From a virus: DNA of 29,502 bases. The first letter of the stretch is position 1. Each line of letters begins with the position of its first letter. This document shows, in pieces, positions 13,674 to 27,691 of the stretch. The notes beneath the pieces were generated by a model. The model was given only the letters and a program-made list of their open reading frames with translations, did not search any database and had not been told where the DNA came from. The translations under genes and the position numbers were made by a program. The DNA lies in the IMG/VR virus record IMGVR_UViG_3300048837_000737, positions 1 through 29,502 of that record. One strand, written 5' to 3'.

Positions 13674-14957
13674 TCACCCGGCTTTTCGAGGCTTGACGCT
13701 CCGTAAGGTGTTGATTTTCAACACCTGGCCGTCCGCGGATCGGGTTGTGATTCTGGTCGTCGTGGGTTCGAGTCCCATCAGCCACCCCACCCTATGAGAT
13801 TCGGCCCCTTCGGGGGCCTTTTTCTTGGCCGTCTCTGGCGGCACTTGTCGCGCAGTTGTAGCAGGGCCGATGTTGCCGGCCCAGGCAGCTACGTGGCCCG
13901 GCGCCAGGTGCGCATAGCGCTGCAGCATGGCGGGCGAAGCCCAGCCGCCCAGCTCCTGCAGCACGCTGTCGGGCGTGCCCGCGATGCGGTGCCAGCTGGC
14001 CCAGGTGTGCCGCAGGTCGTGCCAGCGCAGAGCGGGCACGCCGGCGCGGATGCAGGCCTTGCGCCAGGCGGCGCTGCTGGCCTTGCCTGTGGGGGCGTCC
14101 CACACCAGGCGCGGCTTCTCTTCCGGCCGGCGCTTCTTGGCCCACCGCGGCGCCGGGAACACCCAGCGCTTGTGCATGCCCTGCTGACCCTGCAGCACGT
14201 CGAGCGCGTCGGCGTTGAGCGGCACGGCAATGGCCTTGCCGGCCTTGGCCTGGTCGGCATGCACCCAGGCAGCAGCTCGCGCCAGGTCTACCTGGGACCA
14301 CTCCAACAGGCGCACGTTGCTCTCACGCAATCCGGTGGACATGGCGAAGCGCGCCATCGCGCGCAGGTGCTCGGGCAGCTCGGCCAGCAGCTTGATGGCC
14401 TGCTCGTGCGTCAGCCAGGTGGTGCGGCCCTGCGGCTCGTGCAGCTTGGGCACGGGCGGCGGCGCCGGCAGCCAGCCGCGCACCTGGGCGTGGCGCAGGA
14501 TGCGCGACAGGTCGGACAGGTAGCGGTTGACGGTGGCAGCCGACAGGTGCCGCGGCGCCGGCGGCGGCTTGCCTGCGGCCCGCGCGGCGGCGATCTCGGC
14601 GGCGTTGGCGGGCTCGGCCTGGCGATCGCTGCTGAGGCGTCGCACCACGTCGGCGGTGATGCTGGCCAGCGGCTTGCTGGCCAAGCGGGCCGAGAGCCAG
14701 CGCAGGTTGCGCTTGGCCTCTTCGATGCTGCGCAGGTGCTTGTGCTCGGCCAGCCAGCTGAGCACGGCTTCGTCCCAGGTGTGGGTGGGGGCCTCGCCTA
14801 GTCGCTGCTGCCGCCACTGATCGCGGTAAGCCGTGGCGGCCCACTCCTTCGCCGCGGCTTCGTCCGAGGTGCCAGTGCTGCGGACAAAGCGGCCGCCGCC
14901 CGGAACGGTGAAGTCGACCCACCAGATTCCGCGCTCGCCGCGGCGGTAGACACGCAT
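13674..14957 (-). CDS. int: phage tyrosine integrase
   Basis: 427 residues. It starts at ATG 14957 with ribosome site AGGGGAG. An N-terminal arm-binding region and a SAM-like core-binding region (about 55-165) precede the catalytic domain. Catalytic residues visible: Arg211 (STGLRESN), Lys238/241, HDLR with His313 and Arg316, Trp339 (GGWAS) and Tyr348 (MLQRYAHL). The family catalyses integration and excision at attP/attB. The domain ends near residue 360; the rest is encoded by the terminator and, for residues about 391-405 (WLMGLEPTTTRITT), by the antisense of the tRNA-His fragment. The frame thus runs through the att core and its real C-terminus would change on integration. Confidence 0.92.
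   Translation of the reverse strand: MRVYRRGERGIWWVDFTVPGGGRFVRSTGTSDEAAAKEWAATAYRDQWRQQRLGEAPTHTWDEAVLSWLAEHKHLRSIEEAKRNLRWLSARLASKPLASITADVVRRLSSDRQAEPANAAEIAAARAAGKPPPAPRHLSAATVNRYLSDLSRILRHAQVRGWLPAPPPVPKLHEPQGRTTWLTHEQAIKLLAELPEHLRAMARFAMSTGLRESNVRLLEWSQVDLARAAAWVHADQAKAGKAIAVPLNADALDVLQGQQGMHKRWVFPAPRWAKKRRPEEKPRLVWDAPTGKASSAAWRKACIRAGVPALRWHDLRHTWASWHRIAGTPDSVLQELGGWASPAMLQRYAHLAPGHVAAWAGNIGPATTARQVPPETAKKKAPEGAESHRVGWLMGLEPTTTRITTRSADGQVLKINTLRSVKPRKAG
13706..13726 (+). other. perfect inverted repeat next to the att core
   Basis: AGGTGTTGA-TTT-TCAACACCT, a 9-bp perfect stem with a 3-base loop, 18 bases left of the tRNA-like core and inside the integrase 3' coding region. It could be a protein-binding site in attP (excisionase or host factor) or a terminator-like element for the leftward transcript. 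No T run follows on either strand. Confidence 0.45.
13745..13789 (+). other. attP-like core: 3' fragment of tRNA-His
   Basis: From the anticodon loop TTGTGAT (anticodon GTG) through anticodon-stem 3' strand TCTGG, T-arm GTGGG-TTCGAGT-CCCAT and acceptor strand CAGCCACC to CCA at 13787-13789, the sequence matches a bacterial tRNA-His. The matching 5' half is absent: upstream bases do not form D-arm or acceptor strands. Phages that integrate into tRNA genes carry exactly such a 3' fragment. Lysis genes lie on one side and integrase on the other, so both flanks are phage, as in attP. Confidence 0.8.
13803..13826 (+). terminator. intrinsic terminator carried beside the tRNA fragment
   Basis: GGCCCC-TTCG-GGGGCC followed by TTTTTCTT on the + strand, 13 bases after the tRNA CCA. 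After integration it would sit right behind the rebuilt host tRNA-His gene and end its transcript. It would also face the leftward integrase transcript. On the minus strand the same DNA encodes part of the integrase C-terminal extension (KKKAPEGAE). Confidence 0.85.
13845..13862 (+). repeat. right arm-type direct repeat, candidate integrase site
   Basis: TTGTCGCGCAGTTGTAGC, second copy of the 18-bp repeat (one mismatch with 13652-13669). It lies 55 bases beyond the tRNA-like core on the integrase side and inside the integrase coding frame. Confidence 0.55.
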
Positions 14958-15181
14958 GCCGGCTTCTCCCCTTGTAACGCTGTTGACCCTTGAAGCGGCG
15001 CACTGTACTGCCGGCGCACCCAGTCGATGAGGTCGGCTTCGACGAACAGGTAGGCGCGCCCCAGGCGGGCCGCGGGCAGACCGCGCTCGCGGATGGCCTC
15101 AGACACCGTGTCGGGGTGCGCCTTGAGCAGGCGCGCGGCCTGGGTCAGGGTGAGGATGCGGGGGCGGGGTGACATGGTCAT
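14798..15181 (-). CDS. excisionase-family HTH protein
   Basis: 127 residues. Residues 8-60 form a MerR/excisionase-type helix-turn-helix ([20 protein letters not shown], then [20 protein letters not shown]). The C-terminal tail with [18 protein letters not shown] and KPRRRS is typical of the small HTH proteins found next to phage integrases. It starts at ATG 15181, overlapping the IntI stop (ATGA); ATG 15175 is the alternative. Its 3' end overlaps the integrase start by 160 bases in another frame. Likely role: recombination directionality factor. Confidence 0.75.
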
Positions 15182-16167
15182 GCCAGGCTGTCCAGCGGGC
15201 TGGCCACGCCGGCGGCGCCGACATTCGCCACGTGGGTGTAGATCATGGTCGTGCTGACGTCGCTGTGCCCCAGCAACTGCTGGATGGTGCGGATGTCCTT
15301 GCCCGACTCCAGCAGGTGCGTGGCAAAGCTGTGGCGCAGCGTGTGCGCGGTGACGTGCTTGTGGATGCCGGCGCGCTGTGCGGCGCCGCGCAGCGTGCGA
15401 TTGAGCGTCTTGGGGTGCAGGTGGTGGCGCCGGATGACGCCGGTGCGCGGGCAGGTGCTGTAGTCGTCGGCGGCAAAGATCCACTGCCATTCCCACGCGC
15501 GCGGGGCGTTGGGGTACTTGATGGCCAGTGCGTGCGGCAGATCGACGTCGACCATGCCGCGCATGGTGTCCAGCGCATGCAGGCGGGCCCGGTGTGCGAG
15601 CTGGGCACGCAGGCCGGCCTCGAGCGACCGCGGCAGCATGGTGGTGCGGTCTTTGTCGCCCTTGCCGGCGCGGATGGTGATGACGCGGCGGTCGAAGTCC
15701 AGGTCCTGCACGCGCAGGCGAAGCACATCACTCTGCCGCATACCGGTGGCGTAGGTCAGAGCTACGGCCAGTCCGGCGCTGGTGCGCGGCAGCTGGGCGA
15801 CGATGGCGCGCACTTCAGCCTGGCTGAGCACGCGGGGCAGGTGCACGGGCTGCTTCGCGCTGACGATGTGATCCAGCCACGGCAGGCTCATGCCCAACAC
15901 CTGCCGATACAGGAAAAGGATGGCCGCTTTCGCCTGGCGCTGGGTGCTGGCCGAGACTTTCTTCTCGGTGGCGAGCTGAGTGAGCCAGGCCTGCACTCGG
16001 TCGCCGCCCAGCGTGGCCGGGTGCTTGCGGTCGGCCCAGCGCACGAAGGCCTTGTACCAGGCCACATAGATGCGCTCTGTGGCCAGGCTGTAGTGGCGCA
16101 CACGGCATGCCTGCCGGATCTGGTCTGCCAGCTTGGCGGGCTTGGCGGTGGCGGTGTTAGTGGACAT
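15178..16167 (-). CDS. intI: integron integrase
   Basis: 329 residues, normal length for IntI. It is a tyrosine recombinase with catalytic Arg144 ([13 protein letters not shown]), Lys169/172, HTLR with His275 and Arg278, His301 ([10 protein letters not shown]) and Tyr310. The IntI-specific extra helix is clearly present at about residues 208-230 ([20 protein letters not shown]); it separates integron integrases from XerCD and phage integrases. The family recombines attI with folded attC sites. Upstream lie an attI-type core and four attC-like sites. Translationally coupled to the HTH gene downstream, so it now sits in an intI-xis-int series. Confidence 0.95.
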
Positions 16168-18275: not shown

Positions 18276-18477
18276 GCGGGCTAATCGCCTGCCACTGCCC
18301 ATCCCACGCCCGCGCCCAGCAGCCAGCGTCATAGCGCACCTGCAGGCCGGTGCGGGCTTGCACCTGCTCGCAGGCGCGCCGCTCTGACTGGCCCCAGGCC
18401 AGCAAGCCGAGCAGTGCCGCGCAGGCCAGCGCGGCGGCGGCCAGCAGCAGCGTCAGGGCAGTGGGGCCGGCGGGCAT
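18271..18477 (-). CDS. small membrane protein coupled to the pilin
   Basis: 68 residues. The start overlaps the pilin stop (TGATG). A single N-terminal membrane helix (residues 7-28, ALTLLLAAAALACAALLGLL) is followed by a short soluble part with two Cys (RRACEQV and DAGCWARAW). It is the only gene between the pilin and the integron array, and its stop is formed by the last attC core. Pilin-associated genes of similar size exist in some type IV pilus loci (accessory or glycosylation helpers), but no homology can be claimed. Confidence 0.6.
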   Translation of the reverse strand: MPAGPTALTLLLAAAALACAALLGLLAWGQSERRACEQVQARTGLQVRYDAGCWARAWDGQWQAISPR

Positions 18478-18944
18478 CACTTGCACGAGCCGGGCAGGTA
18501 CTTGGCGGGCAGCGTGGTGCCGTCGCCGCTGTTGCCGCACCGCCATGTGGCGATGATGCCGCCGGGGGCGGGATCTGCGCTCTGTGCGGCGTCAGCGAAA
18601 GGCCTCAGCGTGATGATGCGGCCGTCGATGTCGGCGGCGCCGATGCCCTGGACCTTCACCGAGATCATGCCCGCGGCGCTGGTGGTGACTTCGGCCACGT
18701 ATTTGGTGCCCGATGCGGCCGACAACTCGCAGCCCCACGCCCCGGCCGCCGGCAGCGCGCTGGCGCTCTGCACGGTCTCGGTGATCGTCGTGCGGCACGC
18801 GCTGGCGGCCAACAAGGCCTCGCTCAACTTGGCCTTGCGGGTGTAATCCTGGTAGGCCGGCAGGGCGACGGCGGCCAGGATGCCGATGATGGCCACGACG
18901 ATCATCAGCTCGATGAGGGTGAAGCCTTGGTGCTTGCGGAACAT
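18477..18944 (-). CDS. type IV major pilin-like protein
   Basis: 155 residues with a 7-residue leader MFRKHQG cleaved before [20 protein letters not shown]. Phe1 and Glu5 of the mature form are present, so it should be recognised by the host prepilin peptidase PilD. Mature length, a beta-rich C-terminal half and four Cys (50, 72, 136, 154) fit a full major pilin; Cys136-Cys154 would close the D-region loop. Ribosome site AAGGAG. It sits at the far end of the phage leftward early operon, after SSB and recombination genes. Major pilin versus a minor pilin or pseudopilin cannot be separated firmly. Confidence 0.9.
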
Positions 18945-25563: not shown

Positions 25564-25814
25564 GCCATCGCCTCGTCGCGTTCGCGGTCGCACTCGCGGC
25601 GCAGGCGCTCCTGCACCGCTGTCGAGAAACTGCAAGGCGAGATTTCGCGGCCCTGGTCGTCTTCGATCTTGGTCAGGATCGCCGGGCCATCCGTGGCGTC
25701 GTAGTACACGCGCACGGGCAGTTCGCCCACGTGGCTGTCGATGCGCGGCTCATCGTCGCCATCGGGCAGCACGTTGTTGAGCCACACGTCGCGGTGTGCG
25801 CAGGCGGCGGTCAT
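25560..25814 (-). CDS. small leftward-operon protein, unknown
   Basis: 84 residues from ATG 25814, overlapping the upstream stop (ATGA). It looks alpha/beta (LPVRVYYDATDGPAILTKIE) with a C-terminal charged helix rich in Arg and Glu. No family recognised. Confidence 0.5.
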   Translation of the reverse strand: MTAACAHRDVWLNNVLPDGDDEPRIDSHVGELPVRVYYDATDGPAILTKIEDDQGREISPCSFSTAVQERLRRECDRERDEAMA

Positions 25815-26056
25815 GCCGCCGCTTCCTTCAACCGCGGATGCGCCGCCATCGCGGCCTGCATCAGCTCGGCGCCCAGGGCCAGCGCTTCGGAGGGCGACAG
25901 GCACACATGCGTGCCCATGCCATCGCGGGCGGTGAACAGCAGCACCTGGGGCTGCTGGTTGTTCTCGGCCTGCACGCGCAGCACGGCACCGCGGCTCGTG
26001 ATGCCCTCGCGGACCAGCTTGGTCCAGGGGCTCGAGGCCTGGGTGGCGAAGTTCAT
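25811..26056 (-). CDS. small leftward-operon protein, unknown
   Basis: 81 residues from ATG 26056, overlapping the upstream stop (ATGA). Mixed strands and helices (AVLRVQAENNQQPQVLLFTA, then SEALALGAELMQAAMAAHPR). No membrane segment or catalytic motif. The second gene after the PL-type promoter. Confidence 0.5.
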   Translation of the reverse strand: MNFATQASSPWTKLVREGITSRGAVLRVQAENNQQPQVLLFTARDGMGTHVCLSPSEALALGAELMQAAMAAHPRLKEAAA

Positions 26057-26157
26057 GCGTCGCACCGCCCGAACAGCGCATAGGCCACCACCGGGCCGGC
26101 GCCCAGCCACAGCAGGATGAACAGCGCGACCTCGGCCGCAGTCAGCAGGTGATCCAT
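26053..26157 (-). CDS. 34-residue single-span membrane protein, first gene after PL
   Basis: The product has one hydrophobic span (AAEVALFILLWLGAGPVVAY) and a short charged end (FGRCDA). The ribosome site AAGGAGG is 6 bases upstream, among the best in the window, and the stop overlaps the next start. First gene of the leftward operon, a place where phages often encode Kil- or exclusion-type peptides. Function unknown. Confidence 0.6.
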   Translation of the reverse strand: MDHLLTAAEVALFILLWLGAGPVVAYALFGRCDA

Positions 26158-26183
26158 GCACGCCTCCTTGGGTTGGTGCGCGC

Positions 26184-26212
26184 AGTATCGGTTCTCCGAT
26201 TTAAGTTGTCAA
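26184..26212 (-). promoter_or_regulatory. PL-type sigma-70 promoter of the leftward operon
   Basis: On the minus strand: -35 TTGACA (26212-26207), 17-base spacer, -10 GATACT (26189-26184). The first gene begins 27 bases downstream of the -10. Two repressor-type operators overlap the -10/spacer and the -35 region. Confidence 0.85.
26187..26200 (-). promoter_or_regulatory. operator OL1
   Basis: ATCGG-TTCT-CCGAT, perfect palindrome overlapping the -10 and spacer of the leftward promoter; same family as the OR operators. Confidence 0.7.
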
Positions 26213-26224
26213 CGGTTTTCCGAT
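26211..26224 (-). promoter_or_regulatory. operator OL2
   Basis: AACGG-TTTT-CCGAT overlapping the -35 region, centre 24 bp from OL1. Confidence 0.6.
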
Positions 26225-26242
26225 AGTCACGGACAAGAAATT

Positions 26243-26259
26243 GCCCGCTCGCGGCGGGC
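26243..26259 (-). terminator. terminator-like hairpin after the lipoprotein gene
   Basis: GCCCGC-CGCGA-GCGGGC on the minus strand, followed by AATTTCTT, between the lipoprotein gene and the PL promoter. The short T run makes it a weak intrinsic terminator. It would isolate the repressor operon from the early operon. Confidence 0.6.
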
Positions 26260-26279
26260 TTCTGTCGGGTTGCTTGCGA

Positions 26280-26558
26280 CTACTGCAGCGCAGCTCGTAT
26301 TGGATGTTCCTCGCGCGTGCAGTACACGCTGGTCCCAGACAGGCTCTTGACCGTCAGCGTGCGGCCGTCCGGCAGTGTGATTAGGTCGCCCACCTTGGCG
26401 GACCGCCCGACGCAGTGCTCACCCTCGGCGCCGGTGATGCCGTCGCCAACGGCCTTGATGAGTGAGCCTGGAATGAACACAAACCAGCAGCCAGCCAGTT
26501 GTGTTGTGATGGCCGCCGTCAGAACAAGCCCCAGCTTCCGTCGATCGATTCCACGCAT
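26280..26558 (-). CDS. small lipoprotein encoded downstream of the repressor
   Basis: 92 residues from ATG 26558. A lipoprotein signal peptide (RRKLGLVLTAAITTQLAGC) with lipobox LAGC gives Cys24. The mature part has a short beta-like domain (VGDLITLPDGRTLTVKSLSG) and two further Cys (EHCVG and VYCTR). It is transcribed with the repressor, so it may be made in the lysogen. Such genes are often lysogenic-conversion or superinfection-exclusion factors; this is inference. Confidence 0.7.
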   Translation of the reverse strand: MRGIDRRKLGLVLTAAITTQLAGCWFVFIPGSLIKAVGDGITGAEGEHCVGRSAKVGDLITLPDGRTLTVKSLSGTSVYCTREEHPIRAALQ

Positions 26559-26632
26559 CCTGGTGCCCCTTCCACACTGTTGATGACGACATTGCGCCTT
26601 CGGCCGCTGAATCTGTAGACGTTGCCCGTCAT
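26519..26632 (-). CDS. possible 37-residue ORF coupled to the repressor
   Basis: ATG overlaps the repressor stop (ATGA). The product starts MTGNVYRFSGRRRNVVI and ends WGLF, overlapping the lipoprotein start in another frame. It may be a translational relay rather than a functional protein. Confidence 0.25.
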   Translation of the reverse strand: MTGNVYRFSGRRRNVVINSVEGAPGCVESIDGSWGLF

Positions 26633-27048
26633 GCGGCTCGCGCCGGCGGTTTCCCGCGCAGGCCGGCAGGTTTGGCGGCCTGGTGCTCGGCGTGCAGTTC
26701 TCGCAGCTTGGCCACTGCAGCATCCTCCAGTGCCCCGCGCTCGCGCTCGGTCAACTCACCCCACTGGGCGGCCGTGATGCGGTAGAACGGCCACGGCTCG
26801 GCGGCCACAACGACGGCTGCGTCTCTGCGCTTTGGGCCTACGCCATCGGCCAACCATTGAGCCGACACCTTGTAGAGCTGGGCAAACCGCACGGTCAAGC
26901 TGCTGCCGGCCGCTACGCGCTCCGCGTCCGACAGCGTGCTCTGGCTGATGCCAAGCGCCTTGCAAACAGCGGTTTGCGAAAGCCCGGCCTCAGTCCTGGC
27001 CTCGAACATCCGCTGACCGAACGCCGTCCGTTGCATGGGTCGTCCCAT
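26629..27048 (-). CDS. CI-like repressor, short form
   Basis: 139 residues from ATG 27048 (ATG 27036 gives 135). The XRE/Cro-CI helix-turn-helix spans about residues 10-65: RMFEARTEAGLSQTAVCKAL, GISQSTLSDAERV. The C-terminal half is helical and ends basic (GLRGKPPARAA). The LexA/S24 autocleavage domain of lambda CI is missing, and the total length is about half. Divergent from the Cro-like gene with three operators between. Likely keeps PL and PR silent in the lysogen. Confidence 0.8.
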   Translation of the reverse strand: MGRPMQRTAFGQRMFEARTEAGLSQTAVCKALGISQSTLSDAERVAAGSSLTVRFAQLYKVSAQWLADGVGPKRRDAAVVVAAEPWPFYRITAAQWGELTERERGALEDAAVAKLRELHAEHQAAKPAGLRGKPPARAA

Positions 27049-27052
27049 GCCG

Positions 27053-27066
27053 ATCAGTTTGCCGAT
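27053..27066 (+). promoter_or_regulatory. operator OR3
   Basis: ATCAG-TTTG-CCGAT, nearest to the repressor start and adjacent to its ribosome site region. Confidence 0.55.
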
Positions 27067-27067
27067 A

Positions 27068-27096
27068 TTGACTATCGGCGTTCCGAACGGCACACT
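27068..27096 (+). promoter_or_regulatory. PR-type promoter for the Cro-like gene
   Basis: -35 TTGACT (27068-27073), 17-base spacer, -10 CACACT (27091-27096, weak), then the Cro-like ATG at 27128. The central operator lies between the boxes. The -35 is good, the -10 poor, so the exact -10 is uncertain. Confidence 0.55.
27074..27087 (+). promoter_or_regulatory. operator OR1 (central)
   Basis: ATCGG-CGTT-CCGAA, between the -35 and -10 boxes of PR; centre 21 bp from OR3. Confidence 0.6.
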
Positions 27097-27110
27097 ATCG
27101 GTATTCCGGT
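27097..27110 (+). promoter_or_regulatory. operator OR2 (Cro-proximal)
   Basis: ATCGG-TATT-CCGGT just after the -10 of PR; centre 23 bp from the central operator. Confidence 0.6.
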
Positions 27111-27127
27111 GACTTCCGAGCGCACTC

Positions 27128-27328
27128 ATGGACTGGCCAAGCATCCTCAAAGACCTCAGCGACCGCGGCCTGACCCAGCTTCAGATCGCCGAACGCTGCG
27201 GCGTGGCCCAAGGGACGGTCAGCGACTTGGCTCGGGGCGCAACCAAGAACCCCGCATTTCAGTTTGGGCAGGCGCTGCTTGATCTGCACAAGTCGACGAC
27301 GCCGCGCCGGCCGAAGGCTGCCGCCTAG
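27128..27328 (+). CDS. Cro-like HTH regulator
   Basis: 66 residues with an HTH at about residues 14-37 (LTQLQIAERCGVAQGTVSDL). The C-terminus is basic and short (TTPRRPKAAA). It is divergent from the repressor and reads from the operator region, the place of cro. The ATG at 27128 has a weak upstream ribosome site. Likely switches PRM/PR use during lytic growth. Confidence 0.75.
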   Translation: MDWPSILKDLSDRGLTQLQIAERCGVAQGTVSDLARGATKNPAFQFGQALLDLHKSTTPRRPKAAA

Positions 27329-27430
27329 CGCGGCAACTCCAGCGACCGCCGAGCGTACTCAATCCGTATCTGCGCGCACACCCGCTTGAGCATGTCCGCC
27401 AGCGCCCTTGCAGCCCATTCCTGATCGCAC

Positions 27431-27691
27431 ATGCCTGACTTCGACATCGATCATCTCCTGACCAGCCGCCCGTCCAACCCGGACCGCGATGCGGTGCCGA
27501 TCCGGCTGGACCTCCCGCCCAACTACGCGGCGGCGCTGGACGGCTTGGCGCACATCGACGGCAGCAACCGCAAGGCTCTGTGCGAGCTGGCGGTGCGCGA
27601 GTACATCGACCGGCGCCTCAAGGATTTCAGTCTGGTCCTCAAGATGGCCGGTCGCAATCCAGTCAGCGCGGATTCGGCAGGAGACGACTGA
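27431..27691 (+). CDS. ribbon-helix-helix-like small regulator
   Basis: 86 residues. An N-terminal acidic segment is followed by VPIRLDLPPNYAAALDGLAH and NRKALCELAVREYIDRRLKD, the strand-helix-helix pattern of Arc/MetJ-type DNA-binding proteins. First gene after cro in the rightward early operon, the position of cII-type regulators. The 102-base gap 27329-27430 shows no convincing gene on the + strand. Function inferred from fold only. Confidence 0.55.
   Translation: MPDFDIDHLLTSRPSNPDRDAVPIRLDLPPNYAAALDGLAHIDGSNRKALCELAVREYIDRRLKDFSLVLKMAGRNPVSADSAGDD

Follow-up and report, generated by a model that had tools for sequence, protein, structure and literature searches.

In phage λ, the cI gene lies between PL and PR, cro is divergent from it and tandem operators are placed about 23 bp apart. 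The gene order runs from the early recombination genes through PL, cI with a passenger gene and PR to cro, and the repressor is self-cleaving. According to the available text of PMC4997575, λ has six operators of 17 bp, and in the immB region of N15 and phiKO2 the operators are 16 bp long (T-A-N10-T-A), with OL upstream of the replication gene repA. The paper on Acidovorax phage Aval names CI and CII, and in its available text the word 'operator' occurs zero times (PMC11619371). A literature search of titles and the starts of abstracts, with partial coverage, found no operator set of the kind described below for a Burkholderiales phage.

Predicted operator sites and promoters of the window

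The window is the entire IMG/VR record of 29,502 bp, which is classed as linear and has a GC content of 69.6%. A cI-like repressor gene and a cro-like gene are divergent, with 79 bp separating their start codons, and sites of the type ATCGG-N4-CCGAT lie close to both. The features of the region are as follows.

26053..26157, minus strand: small ORF, first of the leftward early transcript; 34 aa, hydrophobic, preceded by AAGGAGG (ribosome site by eye)
26184..26212, minus strand: predicted PL promoter; TTGACA (26212-26207), 17 bp, GATACT (26189-26184); 10/12 matches to the consensus
26187..26200, unstranded: predicted left operator OL1; ATCGGTTCTCCGAT, no mismatches to ATCGG-N4-CCGAT; shares 3 bp with the PL −10 box
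26211..26224, unstranded: predicted left operator OL2; AACGGTTTTCCGAT, one mismatch; shares 2 bp with the PL −35 box
26243..26259, minus strand: terminator-like hairpin between the cI transcript and PL, called by consensus scan only
26280..26558, minus strand: 92-aa ORF between cI and PL, with a lipobox-like LAGC (by eye)
26629..27048, minus strand: cI-like repressor, 139 aa; alternative start at 27036; HTH_31/HTH_3
27053..27066, unstranded: predicted right operator site C; ATCAGTTTGCCGAT, one mismatch; adjoins the cI start
27068..27096, plus strand: predicted PR promoter; TTGACT (27068-27073), 17 bp, CACACT (27091-27096); 8/12 matches to the consensus
27074..27087, unstranded: predicted right operator site B; ATCGGCGTTCCGAA, one mismatch; inside the PR spacer
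27097..27110, unstranded: predicted right operator site A; ATCGGTATTCCGGT, one mismatch; immediately 3' of the PR −10 box
27128..27328, plus strand: cro-like gene, 66 aa, HTH

An earlier sequence-only reading had placed sites at 26187, 26211, 27053, 27074 and 27097 with spacings of 24, 21 and 23 bp, and direct reading of the DNA confirms this, the distances from one site start to the next being 24, 842, 21 and 23 bp. Each site is 14 bp long, the length also of the operators of phage 434, and the match to ATCGG-N4-CCGAT is perfect at 26187 only. When a single mismatch is allowed the window holds seven sites, five of them being those at PL and PR; 200 dinucleotide shuffles of the window gave a mean of 0.82 and a maximum of four such sites, with no pair within 60 bp. 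A scan for further sites had been proposed as a check, and over the whole window it adds just 11489 and 13406, a yield compatible with chance. These two were rejected as extra operators because they are far from the immunity region and their number fits the shuffle expectation. A palindrome at 27035-27048 (ATGGG-N4-CCCAT), which covers both candidate cI starts, has two mismatches to the motif and was taken as chance. An Rfam search of the window at gathering scores found no family.

PL is the sole promoter-like match in a consensus scan of positions 25800-27500 (0.2 expected). The claim that the sites overlap both promoters holds at PL, where 2 bp of the −35 box and 3 bp of the −10 box are shared, but not at PR, where the sites flank the boxes. 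There the order is site C, 1 bp, −35 box, site B, 3 bp, −10 box and site A, such that sites and boxes interlock. At the positions equivalent to PR two relatives carry TTGACA-17-CACAAT (L044) and TGGACA-17-TACACT (L008). A consensus scan of the cI strand gave no convincing promoter for PRM.

The family search of the 139-aa repressor returned HTH families only, and an S24 peptidase domain was not found in it. The 92-aa ORF (26280-26558) has no family match in Pfam, PHROG or NCBIfam; it occupies the position of rexAB in λ and, with its LAGC motif, could be a surface lipoprotein made in the lysogen. Leftward beyond the 34-aa ORF are an Erf-like gene (PHROG match, with a Pfam ERF match below the cut-off) and a YqaJ-type exonuclease gene.

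Elsewhere in the record there is a gene for an integron integrase of 329 aa (15178-16167, minus strand; TIGR02249, E 5.9e-125, above the cut-off), separate from a tyrosine integrase at 13674-14957; the available text of PMC9892861 already describes integron integrases carried by phages. The leftward gene block includes a type IV pilin of 155 aa (18477-18944, minus strand; PF00114, E 6e-16) with an N-terminal methylation motif, and pilin occurs among phage families (phrog_3433).

Relatives and conservation of the half-site

Relatives were collected with Cro and repressor queries against IMG/VR, GTDB genomes and 399 genomes of one bacterial family. The 399-genome scan, in which 15 candidates per genome were scored, gave eight matches at E 1e-17 or better; an IMG/VR repressor scan with the single protein of the window as the query found no relative. 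Carriers named in the GTDB scan include Variovorax soli and MAGs labelled Xylophilus, Roseateles, Burkholderiales, Rhodocyclaceae and Chitinophaga pinensis. The relatives nearest to the window in layout (L007, L008, L042, L044 and L055) are all viral contigs, and a divergent Cro with operators in between is also seen in relatives. The relatives are not independent of one another, since they were chosen by HTH similarity or by their PL cassette and some contigs are near copies. Dropped as repeats were L013, L023, L025, L034-L037, L004-L006, L046, L049, L050, L052-L054 and L058-L064. L039 was dropped because no Cro was recognised, and L024/L032, L031 and L033 as distant repressors without an upstream CGG-N4-CCG site, which did not enter the de novo scoring.

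The half-site was sought de novo by scoring all 1024 possibilities on two PR and two downstream sites at 23 loci, in a search made without a shuffled control. The best half-site of the window is ATCGG, matching 37/40 bases across four sites, two at PR and two at PL. In the relatives ATCGG is best in seven loci (tied with ATCGA in L042), AACGG in 12 (tied with ATCGG in L043), ATAGG in one and ATCAC in two. The downstream pair, 23-25 bp apart, scores 16-20 of 20 in 20/23 loci, among which L002, L011 and L030 use other half-sites. The PL pair scores just 13, 13 and 15 of 20 in L008, L009 and L010, where unrelated half-sites reach about 14-16 by chance; the L008 cassette was later located farther off on its contig (L051) by the cassette scan described below. 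L002 (2136-2990) and L030 (2912-2986) have retained a Cro-like gene, and their promoters are laid out similarly, but they carry ATCAC-N4-GTGAT operators and another repressor; judged from their predicted operators, the two loci are a natural immunity swap.

The PL cassette is carried by relatives from IMG/VR, by relatives in GTDB genomes and by Aval. An alignment of 16 PL regions shows CCGTTGAC conserved in 14 of them; CCGATA is conserved in 12, and two more have CTGATA instead. The joint conservation of CCGTTGAC and CCGATA implies that operator and promoter have bases in common. A scan of IMG/VR with this PL cassette as DNA only gave 15 contigs, of which 13 encode a repressor of the window's family, although the pattern was designed from family members, so that re-finding those members is expected, and L053/L059 and L052/L056 share identical cassettes. 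Six of the 15 (L045, L047, L048, L055, L056 and L057) were not among the relatives found earlier, and four of these six hold a repressor. In 11 contigs the repressor lies 0.95-2.4 kb upstream on the same strand; a repressor was linked to L050 via its contig mate L016, and L051, being the contig of L008, also has one. L045 and L056 end 301 and 105 bp out, respectively, on the side where the repressor is expected. A pattern with 12 instead of seven spacer bases had no match in IMG/VR, which mainly shows the rarity of chance matches.

The proposed switch and its alternatives

We consider it very likely that the five sites serve as operators in the CI/Cro-type lysis–lysogeny switch of a temperate phage, because shuffled sequences miss the clusters, the de novo search gives ATCGG and relatives conserve the arrangement. 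The evidence comprises the sites themselves, their statistics, the gene context and conservation; its weak points are that four of the five sites are imperfect and that the PR boxes match the consensus at 8/12. The motif that had been described as shared by two sites at PL and three at PR is present as claimed, and conservation in relatives supports its reading as an operator.

In the mechanism that we propose, the 139-aa repressor and the small Cro-like protein would each bind ATCGG-N4-CCGAT as dimers. Repressor at OL1 and OL2 would cover the −10 and −35 boxes of PL and silence the leftward recombination genes, and repressor at sites A and B would block PR and hence cro. Site C, whose deviant half (ATCAG) is unchanged in four of the six members of the window's clade and one base different in the other two, would most likely act like OR3, with cI shut off at high levels of repressor or once Cro is made; it is a candidate for a weak, late-filled site that limits cI through negative autoregulation of a putative PRM. 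Because the repressor appears to be without an S24 domain, induction would not proceed by S24 self-cleavage and would probably require a different trigger, for example an antirepressor or proteolysis by some other route. No antirepressor was found among the part of the window ORFs that was put to family searches. The statement that the sites define the immunity specificity from sequence alone was too strong: a specificity is predicted, and a shared half-site need not mean that two phages are homoimmune.

That the sites are chance palindromes in GC-rich DNA is an explanation with next to no probability. Loose matches are indeed common in the window, with 26 sites observed and 13 expected when two mismatches are allowed, so that the motif is not rare at that tolerance. 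However, none of 5000 local shuffles per cluster reached two sites in 26162-26279 or three in 27037-27127, and the conservation in relatives already refutes chance. It is also improbable, if less so, that just part of the set acts as operators, with sites A and C being by-products of promoter sequence and cI coding sequence. The surroundings of site C are open in the cI frame as well and similar peptides are encoded in relatives (NIGKLIGM, NIGRLIGM and HIGKLIAM), so part of the conservation here could be coding, and at PL the promoter hexamers share bases with the operators. Against this, L008 and L044 match the motif perfectly at site A and the clade keeps the spacing of the sites.

An alternative that deserves more weight, while still being rather unlikely, is that the operators are split between the proteins, for example with Cro on site C alone and the repressor on all five. 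Such a division is described for phiKO2, where CB occupies five operators (three OR, two OL) and Cro binds just OR3 (PMC4997575, available text). In line with it, site C carries one or two mismatches in all six clade members. The recognition helices of CI and Cro in the window are nevertheless similar (SQSTLSD and AQGTVSD), which suggests shared sites. Our preferred reading remains that of five operators in a CI/Cro-type switch.

Promoter register and comparison with known systems

In 27 relatives the PR −10 box that was counted ends 6-8 nt ahead of the cro start codon, whereas in the window and five relatives (L007, L008, L042, L044 and L055) 28-33 nt separate the −10 box from the cro start, and sites C and B flank the −35 box. 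The predicted PR of the window is about one operator step from its place in the 27 other relatives. Both registers were obtained from consensus-match promoter calls, the promoters counted among the 27 scoring 7 to 10 of 12; the weak cases within the 27 are L047 (second-ranked promoter) and the ties in L012, L041 and L002, and in L042 cro was counted from a TTG start. Transcription normally begins about 7 nt past the −10 box, and with a −10 box 6-8 nt before the start codon the cro messages of the 27 relatives are therefore probably leaderless.

A tree of 24 repressor N-termini (66 columns, no starred branch; L055 was found later and is absent) was labelled with these characters. The register changes once on the tree, and the five shifted rows group together (92/92, drawn open). 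The half-site class also changes once, with L043 and L042 labelled ATCGG by hand although tied de novo, L015 labelled AACGG by eye, and L011, L028 and L029 left without a class or register label. The presence of S24, which was found in seven of the 23 relatives scanned, changes six times; the S24 labels of L027-L029 were assigned before scanning and the scan agreed. One rule would tie the recognition helix to the half-site: AACGG goes with Thr after QSTIS, and ATCGG with Asp, Glu, Gly or His at that position. It agrees with the labelled CI rows and rests on one tree change. Cro proteins from AACGG loci have Asp or Glu there, and the rule does not account for position 5, since L041 has Glu and reads ATCGA; it was set aside as a lead only.

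We tentatively combine these observations in a reading that we hold to be plausible, if somewhat short of probable, in which the cro promoter and the operator ladder form modules that can be separated. Most relatives would have a leaderless Cro. In the clade of the window PR would have shifted nearer to cI by about one operator step, so that the cro message gains a leader of about 25 nt and the sites are matched differently to the promoters they block, with PL remaining fixed. The repressor C-terminus would have been swapped repeatedly: a weak tree gives at least six such changes and a single change of half-site class, so that induction and specificity would evolve independently.

The gene order of the window is that of λ and its register of PR relative to the operators differs from that in λ. 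There are two operators at PL and three at PR, in contrast to the three per promoter of λ. The description 'lambda-like' thus suits the layout in outline; it fits less well in that the five operators (3+2) match N15/phiKO2 better, S24 was not found and the PR register is shifted. As given in the available text of PMC4997575, immB of N15 and phiKO2 likewise has a divergent repressor–cro pair flanked by three operators at OR and two at OL; unlike that region, the window has 14-bp ATCGG-N4-CCGAT sites, and behind PL it has the 34-aa ORF followed by the Erf-like and YqaJ-type genes. OL3 is absent from 933W as well (PMC3317979, available text). The PaaR2/YdaS system of CP-933P resembles the window in pairing a short CI-like repressor (15,081 Da when His-tagged) with a Cro analogue; its leaderless message is that of the repressor, whereas in the relatives of the window it would be that of cro (PMC8630535, available text).

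Aval (OP131589) has, like the window, a divergent repressor (45% across the HTH part, with query coverage of 46%), a Cro (47.5% over 88%) and a PL pair at 24-bp spacing with TTGACG-17-GATACT and operators on the same bases. It differs in its half-site, AACGG, in a repressor with an S24 domain and in a cro start 7 nt past the −10 box. The Cro-like gene of Aval (L003; 2725-2922, minus strand, 65 aa, divergent from the repressor) is unannotated in the record.

For a group of temperate phages that are environmental and for the most part uncultured, the operator motif provides a recognition sequence that can be tested, and within the group the operator, the repressor C-terminus and the promoter register all vary naturally and can be compared. 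The PR register is the part of the switch most worth testing; if the shift is true, a phage can rewire its switch by sliding a promoter along an unchanged operator ladder. There are precedents elsewhere for a 3+2 operator set, for the absence of OL3, for a repressor that is short and CI-like and for a leaderless repressor message. Because relatives carry similar arrangements, the switch of the window is real but mostly of a familiar kind, distinguished by a recognition sequence of its own and by the unusual placement of a promoter.
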